Assembly (NCBI GenBank): GCA_017467805.1
Contig: JAFUKJ010000002.1
Location: forward strand, 1 to 35,811
DNA length: 35,811 nt
Reading direction: 5' to 3'
Origin: Lachnospiraceae bacterium
GTDB taxonomy: Bacteria > Bacillota > Clostridia > Lachnospirales > Lachnospiraceae
In this document: piece after piece, positions 10,019-35,233 of the stretch
How positions within the stretch are numbered: position 1 is the stretch's first letter
Layout of the letters: the number at the start of each line of letters is the position of its first letter
The notes under the pieces: model-generated
What the model was told of the DNA's origin: nothing
Databases searched by the model: none
Seen by the model: the letters and a program-made list of their open reading frames with translations, nothing else
Position numbers and translations under genes: made by a program

Positions 10019-11428
10019 TTACTCTTTACCATCCCAGCAGTAAGTACAAAGCTTAGAAGGGTCTAAACCTACAGATGCAATCATGTCATCCAATCTGTGA
10101 TAACGAAGTGTTGTAAAATTAAGCTTCACACGAATCTTCTCTATCATCGCTGCATACTCTGGCGAATCAGGGTTCACATAGGCATTCAGATGAGTCATAT
10201 ACTTCTCACCCTCAAGCTCTTGCATCACCTGATGTGTAATAAGCTCCATCGCAGATGATGTACGTGAGAAGTTCAGATACTTACATCCAAACATCAACGG
10301 TGGACATGCTGGTCTGATATGAACCTCTTTCGCACCACTCTGATATAAGAACTCTGTTGTCTCACGAAGCTGTGTACCACGTACAATAGAGTCATCTATT
10401 AATAACATTCTATTATCCTGAATCAAATCGTGAACAGCAATCAGCTTCATCTTCGCAATCATATTACGCTTCGTCTGAATCGTAGGTGTAAATGAACGAG
10501 GCCAGGTTGGTGTATATTTGATGAAAGGTCTCGAAAACGGAATACCCGACTCATTAGCATAACCAATCGCGTGTGCCGTACCCGAATCAGGAACACCCGC
10601 TACAATATCCGCCTCTACATTATCACGCTTTGCAAGCTCAGCACCACAGTTATAACGCATCTTCTCTACGCTGATACCTTCATATGAAGATGAAGGATAA
10701 CCATAATATACCCAAAGGAAGGTACAAATCTTCATATCCTTACCTGGTGCTACTAATGGCTTCACTGCCTCAGGAGTCACAATTACAATCTCTCCAGGTC
10801 CCAACTCACGAACAGGCTGATAGCCAAGATTCAGATACGCAAAGCTCTCAAATGCTACACAATACGCACCGTCCTTCTTACCAATTGCCACAGGGGTTCG
10901 TCCCATCTTATCACGAGCCGCATAAATTCCCATCGGTGTCATAACCAGTATTGTCATGGAACCATCAATTAAATCCTGTGCATGTTTGATTCCTTCAATT
11001 AAATTCTCTCTTTGATTAATAATCGAAGCTACAAGCTCTGTCGGATTAATGTCTCCACCACTCATCTCAAGGAAATGTGCGCCGTGGCTGTCTCCAAAAA
11101 TCTCATTTACAATCGCATCTGTGTTATTAATCTTTCCAACGGTTGTGATTGCATAAGTACCATGATGTGAACGTACAATCAATGGCTGTGGTTCATAATC
11201 TGAAATACAACCAATTCCAAGATTACCGCTCATCTTGGAAACATCTCTATCAAACTTAGTACGGAATGGTGAATTCTCAATATTATGAATCGCACGGTCA
11301 AAGCCATTCTCCTTACCATACACCGCCATACCTGCACGTCTTGTTCCTAAATGTGAATGATAGTCTGTTCCGAAAAACAAATCAAATACACAATCTTCTT
11401 TTGATGCTACCGCAAAAAATCCGCCCAT
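10019..11428 (-). CDS. purF: Amidophosphoribosyltransferase homologue lacking the glutaminase cysteine
   Basis: PurF makes phosphoribosylamine from PRPP and glutamine. This 469-residue homologue keeps the phosphoribosyltransferase half: the PRPP loop LLIDDSIVRGT (342-352), and Cys235, Cys382, Cys461 and Cys464 (LCTYCWDGKE), which align with the four Fe-S ligands of Bacillus PurF. The glutaminase half has changed. The protein begins MGGFF rather than MCGI, so the catalytic Cys1 is gone. The GHVRYST segment is replaced by GIGCISDYEP, and HNGNLVN by TVGKINN. The KNRYVGRTF loop is also altered. It may use ammonia or have another role; the gene symbol is given by homology only. The ATG is preceded by AGGAG. 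It lies 38 bases after purB. Confidence 0.85.
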   Translation of the reverse strand: MGGFFAVASKEDCVFDLFFGTDYHSHLGTRRAGMAVYGKENGFDRAIHNIENSPFRTKFDRDVSKMSGNLGIGCISDYEPQPLIVRSHHGTYAITTVGKINNTDAIVNEIFGDSHGAHFLEMSGGDINPTELVASIINQRENLIEGIKHAQDLIDGSMTILVMTPMGIYAARDKMGRTPVAIGKKDGAYCVAFESFAYLNLGYQPVRELGPGEIVIVTPEAVKPLVAPGKDMKICTFLWVYYGYPSSSYEGISVEKMRYNCGAELAKRDNVEADIVAGVPDSGTAHAIGYANESGIPFSRPFIKYTPTWPRSFTPTIQTKRNMIAKMKLIAVHDLIQDNRMLLIDDSIVRGTQLRETTEFLYQSGAKEVHIRPACPPLMFGCKYLNFSRTSSAMELITHQVMQELEGEKYMTHLNAYVNPDSPEYAAMIEKIRVKLNFTTLRYHRLDDMIASVGLDPSKLCTYCWDGKE

Positions 11429-14044: not shown

Positions 14045-15232
14045 CTATGCCAATGCTCTTTCATATTCTGACACGAGTTCTAATATTTTCTTGGCATATT
14101 CTGGGAAGGTCTGCACAACATCCTTTACCTCATCCTGTGCATCCTGCGCCATCTTTGCATTATATTCCATCTGCTTGCGCAGCTTCTGTCTTCTGATGAT
14201 TAATCCATGTCTGATTTCTACCATTTCCTTATTGTCATATAACGCTACCGCCTGATGCAGCCAGATATTCGGGTCCTGAATCTTACACTTTCTAAGCTGC
14301 TTTACCAATGATGCCTGATAAAAATCAATATCACTTTGTACCTGTTGTTCTGCTTCTCTTTGCTTCTTCTCTTCGAGATATTTATCCCAAAGATTCTTCA
14401 ACTGTGCGGAACTGTCTACATTATACTTTACATATAAATATTCCAGAAGATTGGTATTATTCACATATCGGATTTTCACTGTATTCTGTAATAATATCAG
14501 CTTATTAATCGCCCTGTCTACCTTCTTCTCTTCTTTGCGAAGCTCATTGAACTTCACATATACATAGGTCATGGCACCTGCTGCCACAAGTACCGCTATA
14601 ATACAACCAAGCTCCACATCCAAATGGAAGGTAGTGCCGATAACTGCCAGTATTAAGAGCAATATAGCCATTGCTCCCACACAAATTGCAATCATACCCT
14701 TTAGGTTATTCTGCCCAGTCTGCAGCTCAGTTCTTCTAAAATGATATGCATGCTTCTCGCCATCTAATCTATTCAAATCCTTCTTCACAAGCACCTGATA
14801 ATCTTCTGCTTCCTTAAGCTTATCATACCCTTCTGGCATGTATTCAGAAATTCGCTCCATCTGTAAATACTGCACATCCGTCATAATTGCTTTTCTCCCA
14901 AGCAGCTTCTTTTGATTGCCCTGCAGCTCTACAATATGCTTTGCGCAGTTAGCAAGCTGTTCTCTCATTTCAGGCGGCATGGCATCTATCTCTTCCATAT
15001 CCGTCAAATACGACGTTACCAGATTATACTCATATCCTAAGGTCTCCAACTCCTTTGAAGCCTCTCCCATTTGGTCTAAGCACGCTTTTACATAACGTTC
15101 TCTTTGCTGCCTGTCATGGAAGTCCATGTCCTTTCTTCTGATGCCTGTTTCCTGCACCTGCTGAAAATCCACTTCCTCTGCCACCTTGTTCTTCTTACTG
15201 AAATGTTGTGTCAAACTTTTGAGTAACCCCAT
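14045..15232 (-). CDS. Membrane-anchored coiled-coil protein (fourth gene of the DUF5717 unit)
   Basis: The 395-residue protein is charged and helical, with two membrane segments in the middle: about 180-200 (MIAICVGAMAILLLILAVIG) and 207-227. The segments before (40-175) and after (228-345) are rich in Glu, Lys, Gln and Leu and likely coiled coil. Both ends would be on the same side, presumably the cytoplasm, because only a very short loop separates the helices. There is no signal peptide. GGGGGAA precedes the ATG. It is last in a four-gene run with the TPR, Hsp70-like and DUF5717 genes and probably anchors them to the membrane. I do not recognise a named family. Confidence 0.8.
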   Translation of the reverse strand: MGLLKSLTQHFSKKNKVAEEVDFQQVQETGIRRKDMDFHDRQQRERYVKACLDQMGEASKELETLGYEYNLVTSYLTDMEEIDAMPPEMREQLANCAKHIVELQGNQKKLLGRKAIMTDVQYLQMERISEYMPEGYDKLKEAEDYQVLVKKDLNRLDGEKHAYHFRRTELQTGQNNLKGMIAICVGAMAILLLILAVIGTTFHLDVELGCIIAVLVAAGAMTYVYVKFNELRKEEKKVDRAINKLILLQNTVKIRYVNNTNLLEYLYVKYNVDSSAQLKNLWDKYLEEKKQREAEQQVQSDIDFYQASLVKQLRKCKIQDPNIWLHQAVALYDNKEMVEIRHGLIIRRQKLRKQMEYNAKMAQDAQDEVKDVVQTFPEYAKKILELVSEYERALA

Positions 15233-15252
15233 TACACTTCCCCCTTATGCCT

Positions 15253-16071
15253 TTACACAGTCTGTCTACGATAGTCATCCTTTAATGCCTTCATAATCTC
15301 GGCATCACTACTTCTATCCTTCCATTTTGCCAGTATGCTAATTTCCGCAGAAGTACACCAATCGCTGTCTGTCGCCTCCCATAGCTTTGCTACTGTTGCA
15401 AAATCATCTTCCCAGTCGGGATTATCCCTCATAAATACACCATAATCATAATCTGATAATGCCATCCGCATCGCCTGAATATAAGTTTGCCTGATATGCC
15501 TGTCGCCACTGATTCGATAGGCCTCCAGATAATACTTTGCAGCCTGTTCATATGCAAAATCCATCGCATATACAGATGCCAGATTGTGATATAGTATAGC
15601 TTTTGACCGTTCTTCCACACCAGGCTGTAACAACAGCTCCTGATAAATCTTCCCGGCCTGCGCAAAACGACCTGTTGCAAAATAATGCTCTGCCCGTTTC
15701 TTCATGCGTTCAAAGGGCGTTAATGCCGCCTGTTCCTTTAAGATACGATCTACCTTTCTGACAATTTGCTCATCATAAATCTGCGTTTTCTCCAGAATCG
15801 TTGTTACGAAAGCTGCCAATGACAACTTTTTCCTGATATATATGTCCAGTTCATCCGCCAATTCCTTCAATCCACATTCTTTACGAATCCATTCCGTAAG
15901 CCTTTGATTCATTAGGTCAGAATCCAATAAATGTATCTTATCTATTAAATAATAACACAATTCTTCGATTGAGTATACATAAATATCTGAAATTTCTAAA
16001 TAAAATGGACAATTTGCAAAATTTCCTACGCACAAATATACATTGTTCACTACAAATCCATTTCCTTCCAC
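15253..16071 (-). CDS. TPR-containing protein (third gene of the DUF5717 unit)
   Basis: The 272-residue protein starts with GTG directly after the stop of the Hsp70-like gene; the binding site AAGGA lies inside that gene, so the two are tightly coupled. Residues 1-110 are a mixed domain (VYLCVGNFANCPFYLEISDIYVYSIEELCYYL) of unknown fold. Residues 120-200 contain TPR-like helix pairs: KRAEHYFATGRFAQAGKIYQ, then ILYHNLASVYAMDFAYEQAAKYY. TPRs bind other proteins, so it may bridge the Hsp70-like and membrane partners. There are no catalytic motifs. Confidence 0.8.
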   Translation of the reverse strand: MEGNGFVVNNVYLCVGNFANCPFYLEISDIYVYSIEELCYYLIDKIHLLDSDLMNQRLTEWIRKECGLKELADELDIYIRKKLSLAAFVTTILEKTQIYDEQIVRKVDRILKEQAALTPFERMKKRAEHYFATGRFAQAGKIYQELLLQPGVEERSKAILYHNLASVYAMDFAYEQAAKYYLEAYRISGDRHIRQTYIQAMRMALSDYDYGVFMRDNPDWEDDFATVAKLWEATDSDWCTSAEISILAKWKDRSSDAEIMKALKDDYRRQTV

Positions 16072-17394
16072 TTATAAATCCTTCAACGAAAACTCTTCCT
16101 GCCATACCTGTCCAGATGATGGAAATATATCTCCAAAACCCTTGTCTTTTAAAGAAATTCTCACCGTATGGGCGTCCGTCATATCCATCCGAATACCTAC
16201 CCGATTGGTACGATTCCCCCTGACATGCAGCCCTTCCAAGGTAATCTCTGCTTTCCTTGCAGCCCTTCCATCCACAGGTGTAATTGTTATCGGAATCTTA
16301 TTATTCACGGATAACATAACATCCAGTTCCTTTTCAGCCTCATACCAGTTTGTGCCCGCATGCAATAGCGGCAGATAAATCTCCTGCATACCCTTGTTAC
16401 AATTTATCCCCAAATTTGCAATCAGCTTCTCATCCGAAAGATGCACATACTCCTGCTTCAGAGTTGACGGCATCATCTGCTCTCTTGCACCGTAGCACGC
16501 ACCCTTGCAGAAAAGATTATTCCCTTGAAATACCCTTCGTCCCTTACACAAATACCGAATGGACTCCTTGCACCATTGTGTTGAAAACTCATCTCCCAGT
16601 AAAAAAACGGAAGTAATATGTCTCTTCTCACACTTTTCTCTAATAATCTCCAAAAAAGCTGCATCCAATTGAAGCTGATAGGCTTCCTTCTGCTCTCTTA
16701 TGGAAGTTGTAAGTCCCTGCTGCTTCATCTGCGGAAAAAGCTCTTCCTGTATCATACACACTATAGGTCTGGTCTTTAGATTCTTCTCCAGCAAATAGCT
16801 TTTTACACCTGATGTGCCATATTCAAAAAGCAATACATCATGAATCCACATTTCCTCAGGCTGATGTATGATATACTGAAAAAAGCAATCCTTTCTAGAC
16901 ATAAATTGCACCTGTACACCATCCAGCTTTAACTCAGCCACTGCCTTTTTCAGAACAGCCATAAGCTCAGGTGTCACCGTTCGAAGCGAAAATGCAATAT
17001 GAGATATATCCTGTGGTGTTGCAAATGCAGATACCAGACCAAGACATTTCTTCAAGAAGATTTCCATAAGCTCTTCTATGGCAAATTCCATATCGCCAAC
17101 TTCCACTGTGCTTCCATTATTAGCAAACAGCACCAAATCCTCTACCAGTATTCCCTCTCCTGCCTGTGCCTTCTGCAGAGCTTCCTTTCCATAATACCAC
17201 TGATGCTGCTCCTGATTGCGGCAAAGTACAGTTGGAATATTATACTGCTCCTCACCGTTTACCAGACTGATTGTCTCTGGCATACTTTGGTCTGCTCTGC
17301 AATAGGTAATCTGCGTGATATCATTTCCAAAATCAATACCAAGCGCTACTTTATTCTTTTTTGTAAGCTCGTCCAATGTTCGTTCCAACAGCAT
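16072..17394 (-). CDS. Hsp70/actin-fold protein, DUF5716-like (second gene of the DUF5717 unit)
   Basis: The 440-residue protein opens with an actin/Hsp70 phosphate loop (VALGIDFGNDITQITYC, residues 16-32), followed by IPTVLCRN and YYGKEAL, which match the IPS and vGeeA positions of Hsp70. Residues up to about 325 form the ATPase-like domain. The last 110 residues are beta-rich (NKIPITITPVDGRAARKAEITLEG), like the beta half of an Hsp70 substrate domain, and there is no helical lid. Length is well short of DnaK. I link it to DUF5716 from memory. It lies between the large DUF5717 gene and the TPR gene. The AGGAG site is 13 bases from the ATG, longer than usual. Confidence 0.75.
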   Translation of the reverse strand: MLLERTLDELTKKNKVALGIDFGNDITQITYCRADQSMPETISLVNGEEQYNIPTVLCRNQEQHQWYYGKEALQKAQAGEGILVEDLVLFANNGSTVEVGDMEFAIEELMEIFLKKCLGLVSAFATPQDISHIAFSLRTVTPELMAVLKKAVAELKLDGVQVQFMSRKDCFFQYIIHQPEEMWIHDVLLFEYGTSGVKSYLLEKNLKTRPIVCMIQEELFPQMKQQGLTTSIREQKEAYQLQLDAAFLEIIREKCEKRHITSVFLLGDEFSTQWCKESIRYLCKGRRVFQGNNLFCKGACYGAREQMMPSTLKQEYVHLSDEKLIANLGINCNKGMQEIYLPLLHAGTNWYEAEKELDVMLSVNNKIPITITPVDGRAARKAEITLEGLHVRGNRTNRVGIRMDMTDAHTVRISLKDKGFGDIFPSSGQVWQEEFSLKDL

Positions 17395-17433
17395 CCTTTT
17401 ATAAGCTCTCCTATGTCCTCAATTAATCTTATT

Positions 17434-17481
17434 TATTAATTATATTAATTTATCAATTATATTAATTTATTAATTATATTA
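17434..17481. repeat. 17-base AT-only tandem repeat between the DUF5717 and DUF5716 genes
   Basis: The unit TATYAATTATATTAATT occurs 2.8 times (17434-17450, 17451-17467, 17468-17481). It overlaps the stop codon of the DUF5717 gene and fills much of the gap. It is rich in short palindromes and could be a weak processing or DNA-bending site, or simply slippage DNA. Confidence 0.85.
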
Positions 17482-20400
17482 CCGTAAATAACTGCCTTGT
17501 ATAAAAATCCTTCTTAAGATATTCCTCCAACAGCTGTGTAGCAGTTGCATCATCCTGCATACTGCATGCAGTCATCACATCATTCAACATCGCAAAGCGC
17601 CCCGCGCCGCTCTGCAGCCCCTGCACTGGTGAAACCAACTCACCGCTTTGGGTTATTACTTCACCATCAGAATGCTCTGTAATATAATATTGAAGCACCT
17701 CACCATGAAACAAGGTAAAGTTCTTTACATACATCCCCTCATATAAGTCCTTCATATCCTCTGTGACATAACAGTTATCTTCCTCTTCACCGCCATCAAT
17801 AATATAATGAACCCGAACAACTGTCCCTGGTGCTGCCTTATACTCCAGAAACACCTTATCTTCATACTTGTATAACTCAGGTACCCAGTCTATATATTCT
17901 ATAAAGAAAGAAAAACATATATCACTCTGCAAAAATTCTTTGATGAACATTGAAACACTTTCTCTTGCCGCCTCCCGACGCAATGCGGAATGCTCTGCCC
18001 AACATTTAAGCAACGCAAGCTTACAAGTGCTATTCAATGCTCCTGTCTGCCTATAAAGTTCATAGATTCGGTCAAAAACAGCCTCGTCTACCAGTACATC
18101 TTCTATCAGATAGGAGTAAGCAACCTCTGTCAGCATATGTCTTACCAGGGTATCATCATGTCTCGGATGCTCTGCATAACATAAAAGCACCTCTGTCTTA
18201 CGTGCCATAAATGCATCTGTATACCACAGTTGCCTTAACATTCTCTGCATTAACTCGCAGGTATCAAGGCCAAGCTCCTGTGCCGCATCCCAAATATCAC
18301 AAAGTTCAGAAGACTTTCCCTCATAATGTCGTGATAAATATTTTAAAATATTCTCATCATAACGCGTATGTCTGAATATATAATACGCAACATTTAGCAA
18401 AAATTCCTCTTTGGTAAAACCATTATCCACGATTCTTCGGCTGATTAATCTCGCTACAGACTTAGGATGAACTCCCTTCATGCCAAATCTACGAATCCAA
18501 ATATATGCCTTTTCAAACATACCTCTGTAGATTAGATACTGAATAAACTCCGCACGCTCTTCTGCATCCAGATTCTCGGGTTCAATCTCCTCCAGATAAT
18601 TATCCAGTTCACCGATCATGTCATTCTCATAATAGAATCTTAATAGATTTGTTCTAATCTCCTTTTTGAAGGAATCTACAATCTGCTCTGACTCTACCAG
18701 ATACTTAAATCGCTTCACATTCTCCTGATTAATCACTATGTAGTCTTTATTTGCTTCACACAGATACAAATCAAAGCTAAGTCTGCCCTCCACGCACTTC
18801 TCAAGTACAGGCATAAATCTCTCCGTCTCCATAAGCCGATGATTCTCAAAAGCTATACTTGCACAATAGCGGTTATTCTCTCTATCCTGAAGCAGTAGCT
18901 GATAATCCTCTCCATAAATTGGAAGCTGACACTTTCCATTTATTACGGGATAAATACTTTCTCCATTTACCCTGTCATGCAGAACAACCACTGATGTAAT
19001 CTGTGGATTTTTAACTACAATGCGATGCATAAATAACAATGGCGTAAAGGCATAAGCCATCTCATCACGAAGCATCTGCGGCGCTACCATCTGCTGATAC
19101 AGATATGCAAGATTCTGATTGATATGCCCCTGCTTAATCTGCTCCAATACAAATCTCTCAATGGCAATACGATAATTCACCTCAATGTCAGGATATTGCT
19201 CCTTATGTCTCTCGATATACGCATACAGATATGCATTCCTCTCATAATCAAGGTCGCTTTGATATGCAAAATACATTAGAAGCATCTTAGGAAGAGCATA
19301 CTCCTTCTCAAGATCCAATGACATCATATAACACTCATATAATCTTGGAACTCTTACTTCCTTCTCGACACCCTTTTCATACCATTCCAAATACTGAGGT
19401 CCACACTTATTACCAAGTACCAACAGCTTGCATATCGCCTGTATCGTCTGGGTTGACTTCGTAATACGATAAACCTCCGCTAATGTTCTGTATAGCAACG
19501 GAGAATATTCCGAAATGCGTACCACCAGATACTGAAGCTGCTCTATCAGTCCCTGATACAATGCCCCCTTCTTCGCCGCATACCAAAGCACGTTCTGCTC
19601 AAACTCATCCAGCCTTAAAATATAAGATGGATGCTCCTCTAACAGCATCACTGCTTCACAGAAAAGAATCGGACTGGTGCAGCCTAATTTAAACTGCTCC
19701 TGTAAAAAGAGCCACTTAAACTCAGGATTCTTTGTATACTCTTCGTCAGCGTACATTAAAAGCCACGCTAAACGCCATTCCTTACGATTGTTGGCAAAGG
19801 CAGTTTCAATCTCATCCAGTACCACCTGAATAAAATTCTCATCACGATTATACAGTGTAGTCAGATACATGTAATAGCACTGCTTTACTATATCCGTCTT
19901 GTCATCTAAAGCCTTCATTCGAATAGCTTCAAGATACGACCTGGCTTCCTGAAAGCGTTCTCTTTCTATCAGAATCTGAATGCGATAGAGCTGCGCTGTC
20001 AAATTATCTTCGTCAAACTCCAAAAGCTCCTCCACTGCCTGTGTAGCTTTTGTGAGCCATACATCCTTGGAAAGCTTCTTTAGGCGAACCTCTGTATAGC
20101 CTTTCATGATTTCGACTAACGCTTTCTGCTCTGCCTTTCGCTTATTACGATTACCTTTTCTCACAGTCTGCGAAATCGTTACAGGTACCCTTAAGCAATT
20201 ACAGCTATCTGAAATCACTATCTCTCCCTTATTTATCCCTGGGCTAAGTCTTGTCGCATCAATATCAAGCTCCAGACGGCAGATATCCTGCTGAAAATCC
20301 TCTGCTGTTATCCACTTCTTATCAATCTGCAAAAATGCACCACTTGTCTCTATCCTAAGGTCTGTATATCCCCATCCGCGCCTGATAATACTCAGTGTTC

Positions 20401-21025
20401 TCTGTGTACTGTTCTTCACATCCTCCAGCACGAAAGCCTCTATATCTAATTCGTATGAAATTGGCTCTTTCTTATGAATCTGCACCAAAAACTCTTCCAC
20501 ATTTCTTTGGTTACCCGCAAAACGTGAAAGTCCCTGATACAACACTTTGTACTTCTTATCACTATTCTGAAATATATTCGCAAAATCCTCACTGTAAAAG
20601 AAGTCTACTGCGCCCTTCCAGTCAGTTTTTGCCAGATTAGTAAAATGAAACAGATTCCTGATATTTCCCATAGATGTTTCCATCTGCGGCTTCGTCACCT
20701 GAATACGATATGGCAGCTCATACTCACCACGATTACTAATCACAGTAAACTTTCCCCTTACAAAGCTGCCTTCCTCTAAATTTGTAGCATCAAGAAAATA
20801 TTCAATCTCTATTTCTTTTCCTAAGAAATGCTTCGCAAATGTCTTCATTCTTGTATCGGAAGAAAAAATATCCCCCTCAGCATCTACTCCATCTGTGTAA
20901 ATAATAAAGATTCCTTCCATCCTTTCCCCAGGATAGATAGAAAACTCCAGCTTAGGACATGAAAACTCCAGATAACGCTTATTCAATTCTTCTCGCCTTG
21001 TTTCCTCTGCGTAATTCTCATGCAT
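17474..21025 (-). CDS. Giant DUF5717-like protein: beta domains plus helical solenoid
   Basis: The 1183-residue protein has no signal peptide or membrane segment. Residues 1-110 are beta-rich (LEFSIYPGERMEGIFIIYT, with a second strand set at FVRGKFTVISNRGEYELPYRI) and look like an Ig-type domain; another such unit covers about 190-290. From about 300 to 1000 it is an alpha solenoid of TPR-like helix pairs (AQLYRIQILIERERFQEARSYLE, LLYRTLAEVYRITKSTQTIQAI), broken by a beta insert near 660-740. The end is again beta-rich (VFLEYKAAPGTVVRVHYII). I link it to DUF5717 from memory. It is the first gene after a strong promoter. Function is unknown; it has the shape of a scaffold or client-binding partner for the Hsp70-like protein. 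Confidence 0.75.
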   Translation of the reverse strand: MHENYAEETRREELNKRYLEFSCPKLEFSIYPGERMEGIFIIYTDGVDAEGDIFSSDTRMKTFAKHFLGKEIEIEYFLDATNLEEGSFVRGKFTVISNRGEYELPYRIQVTKPQMETSMGNIRNLFHFTNLAKTDWKGAVDFFYSEDFANIFQNSDKKYKVLYQGLSRFAGNQRNVEEFLVQIHKKEPISYELDIEAFVLEDVKNSTQRTLSIIRRGWGYTDLRIETSGAFLQIDKKWITAEDFQQDICRLELDIDATRLSPGINKGEIVISDSCNCLRVPVTISQTVRKGNRNKRKAEQKALVEIMKGYTEVRLKKLSKDVWLTKATQAVEELLEFDEDNLTAQLYRIQILIERERFQEARSYLEAIRMKALDDKTDIVKQCYYMYLTTLYNRDENFIQVVLDEIETAFANNRKEWRLAWLLMYADEEYTKNPEFKWLFLQEQFKLGCTSPILFCEAVMLLEEHPSYILRLDEFEQNVLWYAAKKGALYQGLIEQLQYLVVRISEYSPLLYRTLAEVYRITKSTQTIQAICKLLVLGNKCGPQYLEWYEKGVEKEVRVPRLYECYMMSLDLEKEYALPKMLLMYFAYQSDLDYERNAYLYAYIERHKEQYPDIEVNYRIAIERFVLEQIKQGHINQNLAYLYQQMVAPQMLRDEMAYAFTPLLFMHRIVVKNPQITSVVVLHDRVNGESIYPVINGKCQLPIYGEDYQLLLQDRENNRYCASIAFENHRLMETERFMPVLEKCVEGRLSFDLYLCEANKDYIVINQENVKRFKYLVESEQIVDSFKKEIRTNLLRFYYENDMIGELDNYLEEIEPENLDAEERAEFIQYLIYRGMFEKAYIWIRRFGMKGVHPKSVARLISRRIVDNGFTKEEFLLNVAYYIFRHTRYDENILKYLSRHYEGKSSELCDIWDAAQELGLDTCELMQRMLRQLWYTDAFMARKTEVLLCYAEHPRHDDTLVRHMLTEVAYSYLIEDVLVDEAVFDRIYELYRQTGALNSTCKLALLKCWAEHSALRREAARESVSMFIKEFLQSDICFSFFIEYIDWVPELYKYEDKVFLEYKAAPGTVVRVHYIIDGGEEEDNCYVTEDMKDLYEGMYVKNFTLFHGEVLQYYITEHSDGEVITQSGELVSPVQGLQSGAGRFAMLNDVMTACSMQDDATATQLLEEYLKKDFYTRQLFTVI

Positions 21026-21063
21026 GTCTTTTCTTCCTCGCGCAAAAATACTATGTTAACTTA

Positions 21064-21092
21064 ATTATACGGTATTTTCAAAAATGATTCAA
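21064..21092 (-). promoter_or_regulatory. Promoter of the DUF5717 four-gene unit
   Basis: TTGAAT (21087-21092), 17 bases, TATAAT (21064-21069), about 40 bases before the first start codon. No operator-like palindrome is seen, suggesting housekeeping expression. Confidence 0.75.
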
Positions 21093-21096
21093 CAAC

Positions 21097-21126
21097 AAAG
21101 GAGATTGTATGACAACAATCTCCTTT
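21097..21126 (-). terminator. Terminator of ilvE
   Basis: AAAGGAGATTGT pairs perfectly with ACAATCTCCTTT around six bases, ten bases beyond the ilvE stop. The T-run (TTTGTTGTTG) is imperfect. It separates ilvE from the DUF5717 unit. Confidence 0.8.
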
Positions 21127-21135
21127 AATATCATC

Positions 21136-23493: not shown

Positions 23494-25092
23494 TTATCTG
23501 TCCCACTTATCGCATAATGAATTAATCTGGTCTGCGAACTTCGCCAAATCCTTATTGGCACCGCCCTCATTCTTATGAATAACTGAAATCAGGCGCTGTC
23601 CTGCTGCCAAAAGTCTTGTAAAGACATCGGATACTACGATGATTCTCTTCTTCTTTACAACAGGTGCTGCCTCGTACTCAATGGTATTGGTAATCAAATC
23701 TACCCTTGTACCAGAATATGGGGCATATGCACGGATTCCATGCTCTATCTTAAGGCATTCGGTGAACAAATTGCAAACACTATCTTCACCATGCACAACA
23801 AATACTCTGTCAGGCTTCTTCTCAAAGGCAGTAATCCAATCAATTAATCCTGCCTTATCGGCATGACCGCTAAGTCCTGGAAGCTTCGTAATATTAGCTC
23901 TTACCTCCACAGGCTCACCGAAAAGTTTAACCTCTTTTGCCCCATCCACAAGTACTCTTCCCAAGGTTCCCACAGACTGATAGCCAACGAAAAGTATTGT
24001 ACACTCAGGTCTCCAAAGATTATGCTTCAAATGATGTCTGATTCGTCCTGCCTCACACATACCGCTGGCAGAAATAATTACCTTCGGCTTATCATCAAAG
24101 TTAATCTGCTTAGACTCATCACTGGTAATAGAAAGCTTTAAGCCTGGGAATGTTAAAGGATTAACCCCCTTCTTCACCAGCTCCATAGCCTCCTCATCAT
24201 AACAGTCAAAGACATTCTTCTGGAAAATACCTGTCGCCTCAACTGCCAACGGACTGTCTACATATACCTCAAACTTCGGATAAGAGGTTACCAGTCCGTC
24301 TGCCTTAATCTTACGGATAAAATATAAAATCTCCTGCGTTCTACCTACCGCAAAGGATGGAATTACGACATTACCGCCCTGCGAAAAGGTCTTATTCATG
24401 ATATCCGCCAGGTCCTTTATATAATCAGGCTTCTCGGCACTATGCATCCTATCACCGTAAGTTGACTCCATAACAACATAGTCCGCCTCTTTGGTATAAA
24501 TCGGGTCTTTTATCAAAGGCTGATTCTTATTACCAATATCACCTGAGAATACTATCTTCTTCGTGACATCGCCCTCTGTCAGCCATACCTCAATACTTGC
24601 TGAGCCAAGTAAATGACCTACATCCGTAAAACGAATCTTAATCCCTTCTGCAAGCTCTATTTCCTTATTATAATCACAAGGAACAATTCTCTTAATGGTT
24701 CCCTGTGCATCTTCCATCGTATATAAAGGCTCTGCCTGCTCTACGCCTGAGTGTCTCTTTGCCTTACGATTCTTCCACTCTGCCTCTGTCATCTGAATAT
24801 GCGCACAGTCACGAAGCATAATAGAGCACAAATCAGCAGAAGCCTCCGTCATGTAAATATGACCTCTAAAGCCCTTCGCATATAAAAGCGGCAGATGTCC
24901 TGAGTGGTCTACATGTGCATGTGTCAGCAGCACATAATCAATACTTGCCTCATCTACTGGAATCTCACAATTTTCAAATACATTAACGCCCTGCTCCATG
25001 CCGCAATCTACCAGAATATTCTTACCACACGCCTGAATATAATGACAGCTTCCCGTTACTTCATGTGCAGCTCCGACAAAAGTCATTTTCAT
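23494..25092 (-). CDS. Beta-CASP metallo-beta-lactamase hydrolase (CPSF/YSH1-like, probable RNase)
   Basis: The 532-residue protein has the metallo-beta-lactamase start MTFVGAAHEVTGSCHYI, the zinc motif THAHVDHSG, the third site DVGHLLGSAS, and FSGDIGNKNQPL. The beta-CASP part follows (VVIPSFAVGRTQEILYFI, SASGMCEAGRIRHHLKHNL), and the last His motifs are GLSGHADKAGLIDWI and FVVHGED. Such proteins cut RNA; the bacterial members outside RNase J are little studied. A C-terminal extension of about 60 residues (KKKRIIVVSDVFTRLLAAGQRL) is extra. AGGAGG lies eight bases before the ATG. thyX and folA follow in the same direction. Confidence 0.93.
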   Translation of the reverse strand: MKMTFVGAAHEVTGSCHYIQACGKNILVDCGMEQGVNVFENCEIPVDEASIDYVLLTHAHVDHSGHLPLLYAKGFRGHIYMTEASADLCSIMLRDCAHIQMTEAEWKNRKAKRHSGVEQAEPLYTMEDAQGTIKRIVPCDYNKEIELAEGIKIRFTDVGHLLGSASIEVWLTEGDVTKKIVFSGDIGNKNQPLIKDPIYTKEADYVVMESTYGDRMHSAEKPDYIKDLADIMNKTFSQGGNVVIPSFAVGRTQEILYFIRKIKADGLVTSYPKFEVYVDSPLAVEATGIFQKNVFDCYDEEAMELVKKGVNPLTFPGLKLSITSDESKQINFDDKPKVIISASGMCEAGRIRHHLKHNLWRPECTILFVGYQSVGTLGRVLVDGAKEVKLFGEPVEVRANITKLPGLSGHADKAGLIDWITAFEKKPDRVFVVHGEDSVCNLFTECLKIEHGIRAYAPYSGTRVDLITNTIEYEAAPVVKKKRIIVVSDVFTRLLAAGQRLISVIHKNEGGANKDLAKFADQINSLCDKWDR

Positions 25093-34558: not shown

Positions 34559-35233
34559 CTATGCCTTGAGCCATGTATCAATTGTCTCGGCAATATCATT
34601 TACAACAAATTCTATAAAAGTATTAATACCTCTTGCCGATAAAAAACGATACTTTGATATATCAACTGCATCAACATCATATTGCGAATTTAATAAATGA
34701 TTTCTTTGTTTTTCAATATCCGCTTGGCATACAAGCCCTTCCACATCAAATACCATAGCTTCTGAAAGCATCTTGCAAATTGCATCAGTATTCTCACTAT
34801 TTTGATGAAGCCACAAATCAATTCCTCGAGCCTCTGGATAGTATGCATCTTTAAACTCTTCGAAATTCATAGGCGGTATATTCTCACTCTGAAGCTTTTT
34901 CCAAATTTCTATATCATTCCAATAATCCGTCAAGCAATGTACACATAATCCAAACACAAAATCTCTGTAAACTTGTCCTTTTTCTGTCACCGCATATTTA
35001 CAGAAAATATCATTGATATTACTATGCCAGCGTTGATAATCTTGAGTATCACTCCATATCCCACACCCTTTAAACATATGCGATTTAATCTTCATATTGA
35101 CATCATAATTCGGATTCATATGCACAGAATCTGGTGCTACAGAACCAAGAATAAATTCTGCAGCGTTTTCTATTTGAGGTATTCGCTTTAAAAGTCTATA
35201 TGCAACTTCCATATGTATCATCTGAAAAGACAT
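34559..35233 (-). CDS. Zinc-dependent phospholipase C-like protein
   Basis: The 224-residue protein has the start MIHMEVAYRLLKRI, then FILGSVAPDSVHM and RDFVFGLCVHCLTDYWND. These helical His/Asp motifs are those of the zinc-dependent phospholipase C superfamily, which in clostridia includes many non-secreted proteins of unknown substrate. There is no signal peptide, so it is not a classic secreted toxin. The central sequence (SHMFKGCGIWSDTQDYQRWHSNI) fits the family. AAGGAGG precedes the ATG. It has its own promoter region with a palindrome over the -10, and no clear partners. Confidence 0.78.
   Translation of the reverse strand: MSFQMIHMEVAYRLLKRIPQIENAAEFILGSVAPDSVHMNPNYDVNMKIKSHMFKGCGIWSDTQDYQRWHSNINDIFCKYAVTEKGQVYRDFVFGLCVHCLTDYWNDIEIWKKLQSENIPPMNFEEFKDAYYPEARGIDLWLHQNSENTDAICKMLSEAMVFDVEGLVCQADIEKQRNHLLNSQYDVDAVDISKYRFLSARGINTFIEFVVNDIAETIDTWLKA

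Follow-up and report, generated by a model that had tools for sequence, protein, structure and literature searches.

A conserved DUF5717-DUF5716 gene unit of Lachnospiraceae and its possible derivation from a multi-Hsp70 array

Why should nearly every member of a bacterial family carry, side by side, a giant protein of Pfam family DUF5717 and a protein that is folded like an Hsp70 but appears to have lost the residues needed for ATP hydrolysis? The question is raised by a stretch of 35,811 nucleotides from a Lachnospiraceae bacterium (contig JAFUKJ010000002.1 of assembly GCA_017467805.1; hereafter the window), in which four genes, here called A to D, occupy the minus strand between two genes named ilvE and purC from their Pfam matches. 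The family is one of the major bacterial groups in the gut of humans and ruminants. A previous reading of the sequence alone (the sequence-only reading) had proposed that the four genes encode a membrane-linked machine made of an ATP switch, a scaffold, an adaptor and an anchor, with no described function. On the last point it stands, as no description of the unit was found in the searched open-access literature on DUF5717, DUF5716, Hsp70/GrpE/vWA arrays or Lachnospiraceae core and signature proteins. The answer that we favour, at about even chances, is that the unit represents a multi-Hsp70 machine of the order reduced to its core and works as an ATP-independent scaffold or holdase complex resembling Ssz1. 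The genes are:

17474..21025, minus strand: gene A, DUF5717 protein, 1183 residues
16072..17394, minus strand: gene B, DUF5716 protein, 440 residues; fold of the Hsp70 nucleotide-binding domain (NBD) plus the beta part of the substrate-binding domain (SBD-beta), no lid
15253..16071, minus strand: gene C, tetratricopeptide repeat (TPR) protein, 272 residues counted from the first GTG
14045..15232, minus strand: gene D, 395 residues; coiled coil plus a hydrophobic stretch read as a transmembrane hairpin

The co-directional, tight arrangement claimed for the four genes was confirmed, with intergenic gaps of 79 (A-B), 0 (B-C) and 20 nt (C-D); the second becomes 21 nt if C begins at codon 8 (position 16050, also a GTG), a start that the family alignment suggests. 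In the best 80 of 519 related loci, a selection that favours close relatives, A, B and C were found in 80/80 and D in 79/80, and the order A-B-C-D on one strand was kept in 79/80, with median gaps of 27, 26 and 28 nt. In the exception, L140 from Eisenbergiella tayi, D was not matched, and C is followed by masked bases. We also analyzed a divergent set of 70 Lachnospiraceae genomes, chosen by eye because their A or B match was weak or missing. Both genes were present in 63 and neither in five (69-99% complete), which also lacked D and any convincing C; G268 carried only B and G394 only A, these two being 67 and 68% complete, with neither C nor D found. C was matched in 64/70 genomes (in G277, which has no A or B, at no better than E 0.001) and D, by its profile, in 25/70. 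When 40 of the 63 loci with A and B were read, a selection biased against D because 37 of them had no D profile match, A, B and C lay on one strand in 39, the other (L177) ending at a contig end, and three further D genes were recognized, two by profile (L169 and L192) and one by its hydrophobic hairpin (L189). The genes are therefore usually together, and not apart as chance adjacency would have it: their grouping is far beyond chance. However, D was recognized in just 28 of the 63 divergent genomes carrying A and B, so that the core consists of three genes, A-B-C, and D is an accessory. The four-gene membership proposed before thus holds for A, B and C and fails for D as a universal member, and this counts against any mechanism in which tethering to the membrane is essential to all members.

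Two further observations bear on the unity of the core. B and C formed a single open reading frame (ORF) of 690-727 residues in seven of the 64 divergent genomes with a C match, whereas the near loci showed no such fusion and a C of 269-284 residues. The fused ORF of L186, for instance, has 723 residues. Six of the seven fusions could be placed in a tree, and since five share one clade (support 0.81) and that of L163 stands apart, at least two fusion events took place. In addition, pairwise distances were compared in the 43 of 80 near loci having all six of A, B, C, D, purC and purB. Distances among A to D correlated at 0.95-0.99, and still at 0.85-0.95 after regression on purC and purB; with those of purC or purB they correlated at 0.70-0.83. 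The regression is a partial control, since linked genes within a lineage correlate in any case. Mean identities were 46-57% for A to D, 67% for purC and 88% for purB.

In an even sample of Lachnospiraceae, A (PF18983) and B (PF18980) were each present in 244/250 genomes, and each in 199/202 when only genomes with completeness of 90% or more and contamination of 5% or less were counted, with a single match place in nearly all genomes. By these numbers the unit stands for a core function of the family. In a sample of the phylum, A and B were each over the cut-off in 4/249 genomes, all Lachnospiraceae; a PF18983 match below the cut-off (G027, E 6.5e-4) was not counted. In the order, PF18984 was over the cut-off in 61/116 genomes, that is, 11 Lachnospiraceae plus 50 of 105 outside the family, in 14 families. 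A profile of the N-terminal domain of A (A1) matched five Lachnospiraceae genomes in a sample of the class (n=148), plus one weak match (E 3.7e-4, in an ORF of 3,899 residues) that was not counted. Hence, no A or B match over the cut-off was obtained outside the order among the sampled genomes. Viral contigs gave no match to B either, in a search of a type that detects close relatives only. Outside the order, contig C30 of G709 (L250, L251) bears an ORF of 3,899 residues with two weak A1-profile matches.

We read the surroundings of A in 20 of the 50 genomes outside Lachnospiraceae that carry it, mostly those with the better matches, from eight families. These loci (L197-L232) presented a larger array of nine genes in the order A1-A2-X-Y-B1-B2-Z-C(-D), colinear with the Lachnospiraceae unit. 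A was divided into two ORFs (about 390-430 and 870-910 residues) in 15/20 loci, and in L216 it was one ORF of 931 residues. X was present in 20, Y in 19, B1 in 17 and B2 in 16 loci, with Z after each of those 16; these counts combine two sets of stretches read together, and in L202, L203 and L212 the locus is truncated where the contig or the stretch read ends. Downstream reading in 16 of the 20 genomes showed C after Z in 16/16 and D after C in 4/16, with another ORF intervening before C in L226 and C in two pieces in L229. Additional ORFs stood between array genes in L210, L212 and L213. X has 554-581 residues when whole, Y 279-645, B1 457-542, B2 539-572 and Z about 690. As for Pfam, HSP70 was matched by the X scanned (5e-76), by the B2 scanned (4e-63, plus DUF5716_C at 3e-10) and by four Z proteins (about 1e-95), of which two whole ones also carry a vWA domain (VWA_4, 3e-11 and 3e-10), while three Y proteins end in a GrpE domain (5e-11 to 5e-12). 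X, B1 and B2 are lidless. No DnaJ match was obtained among the 21 array proteins scanned, and HPD tripeptides in ten B2 proteins were rejected as J domains, those proteins being Hsp70s. Within the window, no HPD tripeptide occurs in proteins A to D; the absence of HPD and GrpE pointed out by the sequence-only reading is thus correct for this unit, but lack of GrpE is a trait of Lachnospiraceae, the arrays of other families carrying one.

HSP70 match places were counted in 23 genomes: there were 7-11 in genomes with the array (n=7), 2-4 in genomes outside the family lacking A (n=4) and 2-6 in Lachnospiraceae (n=12). Going by their lengths, we take those of Lachnospiraceae to be DnaK, in some genomes an HscC-like protein, MreB-like proteins and a 953-residue frame in G432, and on the same grounds no array-type Hsp70 was recognized among the HSP70 matches of the twelve genomes.

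What, then, is B? Its Pfam match is DUF5716_C (6.9e-99), it has no HSP70 Pfam match of its own, and its profile gave one chance-level match (E 3) against PDB sequences. Nevertheless, it was predicted with high confidence to adopt the fold of an Hsp70 NBD followed by an SBD-beta, and only a median of 25 residues, versus 161 in DnaK, extend past the last SBD-beta anchor, in keeping with the lidless Hsp70 fold plus beta domain that had been proposed for it. The link in sequence runs through B1. B and B1 were aligned by hhalign at E 4e-48, DUF5716_C was matched by both B1 proteins scanned, and that of L200 matched HSP70 (7.2e-17) and DUF5716_C (2.6e-27) at once. B therefore belongs to the Hsp70 superfamily, and B1 is, judged by its sequence, a degenerate Hsp70 corresponding to B. 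Some results pull the other way: B aligned poorly by hhalign when set directly against X (probability 8%), and the B1 of L197 matched DUF5716_C and not HSP70. Because DnaK and Hsp110 tie with Ssz1 within 1 Z as fold matches to B, the fold alone does not single out Ssz1.

In an Hsp70 tree (FastTree, rooted on DnaK), B clustered with the B1 of G498 (0.996) inside a clade of B1, B2 and B (1.0). The G498 protein belongs to a full array that includes D. We consider, at a little under even chances, that the order invented a machine of three lidless and catalytically intact Hsp70s (one with vWA), a GrpE domain, an immunoglobulin-like (Ig) and solenoid scaffold and a dead fourth Hsp70, and that Lachnospiraceae dropped the motors and the exchange factor and kept the dead Hsp70 and the scaffold as a near-universal ATP-independent complex. 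The Lachnospiraceae ancestor would thus have lost X, Y, B2 and Z, leaving the scaffold A, the degenerate Hsp70 B, the TPR adaptor C and, in many members, the membrane anchor D. Several data speak against so simple a history. A is fused (about 1,330 residues) in 4/20 outside loci and split in one locus within the family (L196), and the array itself is variable, since L213, which is not truncated, holds A, X and Y with no B1, B2 or Z in about 5 kb after Y. Moreover, B1 plus B to the exclusion of B2 was supported at 0.507 only, so that we infer reduction rather than expansion by parsimony.

In the converse history the order would have started from the short A-B-C-D form, which families other than Lachnospiraceae later enlarged with Hsp70 duplicates, GrpE and vWA parts. 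This history draws on that same weak split, on a gene order that taken alone is symmetrical, and on L213, where the array holds some of the extra genes only. Under it, however, B would still have to derive from an Hsp70 with intact residues. B groups with a B1 that itself sits in a full array with D, and across the families read X and B2 show good conservation (57-100% and 59-100% identity to L200), whereas B is a fast, degenerate branch (root-to-tip length of 5.3 versus 1.95 for B2). We regard an ancestral short form as unlikely.

The nature of B was further examined at the catalytic and phosphate-binding positions, read in a joint alignment with anchors found by motif; the columns of B, B1, B2, X and Z are named by residue numbers of DnaK. 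In the 49 near B rows, the lysine K70, the glutamate E171 (H in 42), the GGG loop and T11 were found in none and T199 in three, and the D194 column held D in 27 and E in 22. The divergent B rows (n=37) were similar, with K70 in 0 of the 30 having a letter there, E171 in none, T199 in one and D8 in 30, and so were the B1 rows (n=16), with K70 in none, E171 in one, T199 in none and D8 in 15. In contrast, D8, G10, T11, T12, K70, E171, D194, GGG and T199 were intact in DnaK (10/10), X (19/19) and B2 (16/16), and in all Z rows that have a letter at the position. Here, "intact" is restricted to the catalytic and phosphate residues, because the adenosine side differs: E267 of DnaK is missing from X and B2, and R345 and D366 from X, B2 and Z. 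B is consequently not a canonical ATP-cycling Hsp70, its phosphate loops, catalytic lysine and glutamate and SBD-alpha lid all being affected, and the ATP switch seen in it by the sequence-only reading is not supported, given the loss of the lysine, the glutamate and the GGG loop in every near row.

Could B be an ATP-driven switch all the same, a non-canonical Hsp70 that still binds ATP and hydrolyses it slowly with replaced residues in an active chaperone machine? The fold is that of an Hsp70 at high confidence, near rows keep D8 (45/49), G10 (40/49) and G341 (49/49) and have an acidic residue at D194, and X and B2, which are taken as active, tolerate change at E267, R345 and D366. As D8, G10 and G341 are mostly kept, weak nucleotide binding by B is possible, which counts against the reading that we favour. 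On the other hand, the residues of hydrolysis are gone, B1 already shows the loss next to paralogues in which they survive, the rate of evolution of B far exceeds that of B2, and the unit has neither a GrpE nor a J gene. We consider a surviving switch distinctly unlikely.

The partners of B fit the description given of them before. A, which matched DUF5717_N (E 1.3e-288) and DUF5717 (2.2e-85) and, as a profile, no PDB sequence, is the beta/solenoid protein that had been proposed: two PapD/ASH-like Ig domains (about residues 20-290), with a fold match spanning a whole domain at the N-terminus, precede a long solenoid of helices that carries a beta insert (about 666-730), then a C-terminal beta sandwich (1057-1131) and helices. 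C matched TPR_12 at E 5.9e-07 (30.0 bits, just below the cut-off of 30.1), its profile matched solved TPR proteins down to 8e-13, and its relatives from three arrays matched many TPR models, so that its assignment as a TPR protein is sound. D matched no Pfam family, and its profile gave weak coiled-coil matches (best E 0.0073). Its single hydrophobic stretch (residues 175-228) could accommodate two helices, and 38/38 rows of its alignment, that of the window included, have at least 38 such hydrophobic residues. This agrees with a membrane coiled coil; the link of the whole machine to the membrane, also proposed before, depends on D, which is not universal.

We infer from the foregoing that B does not cycle ATP and may act as a fixed adaptor, by analogy with yeast Ssz1. 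Its SBD-beta would be occupied by a segment of either partner, A or C, serving as a built-in pseudo-substrate, or would bind a client with low affinity, while the Ig and solenoid domains of A would organize the complex, C would recruit the client and D, where present, would anchor everything at the inner side of the membrane. The task of the complex might be the ATP-independent holding or assembly of a cellular component found across the family. The two structure predictions made are of single chains. If the scheme is correct, an Hsp70 machine has been turned into a structural or holding complex with a family-defining core function that has no described counterpart. The order also offers a natural experiment, as it contains both a full multi-Hsp70 array and a motor-less version, with matched pairs in which one may ask what the Hsp70 fold does without ATP cycling.

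Among known systems, the DnaK-DnaJ-GrpE machine shares with B the Hsp70 NBD and SBD-beta fold and with the larger array the catalytically intact Hsp70s and a GrpE-domain protein. It differs in that B is lidless, lacks catalytic and phosphate-loop residues and is linked to A, C and D, and in that no J protein was seen in the unit or the scanned array proteins. A DnaK-like match apart from the unit is present in the genome of the window, split across contig ends. With respect to Pfam DUF5716 and DUF5717, B and A are full members; Pfam assigns these families no function, whereas we place B among the Hsp70 paralogues and see in A a scaffold of Ig and solenoid domains. Alike in working may be the ribosome-associated complex (RAC) of yeast, Ssz1/Zuo1. 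Ssz1 is reported to bind ATP without being able to hydrolyse it, to have no lid and to take a segment of Zuo1 as a pseudo-substrate (PMC7083937). B is likewise lidless and has lost the catalytic residues, but no ribosome-binding J protein was seen here and the Lachnospiraceae locus keeps no active Hsp70; the likeness is one of working, not of shown common descent as a system, the Ssz1 match being tied with others.

It may also be asked whether the unit belongs with the Hsp70/GrpE conflict or immune systems found among GAP1-N2 GTPase systems, minus the GTPase. In Kaur et al. 2020 (PMC7159879), the nearest account found, a second theme is described with HSP70, GrpE and a second HSP70, together with Ig/FNIII and TPR proteins (FNIII-TPR fusions in firmicutes) and, in other themes, vWA, and the array does have Hsp70, GrpE, vWA, TPR and Ig-like parts. 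However, the TRAFAC GTPase of those systems had no counterpart, as no Pfam GTPase match was obtained in the four genes, ten neighbouring genes of the window or the 21 array proteins, GAP1 itself not having been searched for. The array has three catalytically intact lidless Hsp70s plus a degenerate one, and the unit is restricted to the order in our samples, near-universal in one family and co-evolving, unlike a patchy conflict system. As for D being a SLATT two-transmembrane effector, six of its 38 members matched SLATT_1 at E up to 1 (best 0.063), below the cut-off. We hold this origin to be very unlikely. A defence system as such was rejected, no PADLOC match being better than E 0.31.

Finally, a role as a sporulation accessory of the clostridial order, suggested by its many spore-forming members, is hardly credible and was rejected on the one marker used, Spo0A_C, which was found outside Lachnospiraceae in 42/50 genomes with A versus 41/55 without it (Fisher P 0.34) and was missing in five of 11 Lachnospiraceae genomes that have A.

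Upstream of A, two more features of the window were recorded:

21064..21092, minus strand: promoter-like site TTGAAT-17-TATAAT, 10/12 match
21096..21127, minus strand: hairpin between ilvE and A, minimum free energy -19.7 kcal/mol, z -5.73

The hairpin is likely the terminator of ilvE, and, because it is strong and stands between ilvE and A (110 nt apart), the unit would start after it, set apart from the upstream gene. The strong promoter claimed for the unit is plausible by its position; its 10/12 match by itself does not support it, since promoter-like matches in the region (25) were no commoner than in shuffles (mean 28.5). At the other end, D is separated from purC by 212 nt. The flanks are purine genes, with a purC cluster at 57 of 81 near loci, or transporter genes, and we read them as a matter of position and not of function.

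Elsewhere in the window, a 224-residue ORF (34559-35233, minus strand) had no Pfam or NCBIfam match at 1e-5, and a beta-CASP metallo-beta-lactamase nuclease is encoded at 23494-25092 (minus strand), with a type VII CRISPR Cas14 model (413 bits, cut-off 800) and aCPSF1 as its best NCBIfam matches, both below the cut-off. A PurF-like protein of 469 residues (10019-11428, minus strand; TIGR01134 at 184 bits against a cut-off of 350, GATase_7 weak) is found near purC and purB in many relatives. In many relatives, too, three genes resembling an amino-acid ABC transporter, so labelled from their sequences and not from a family search, lie between D and purC (L095-L145).

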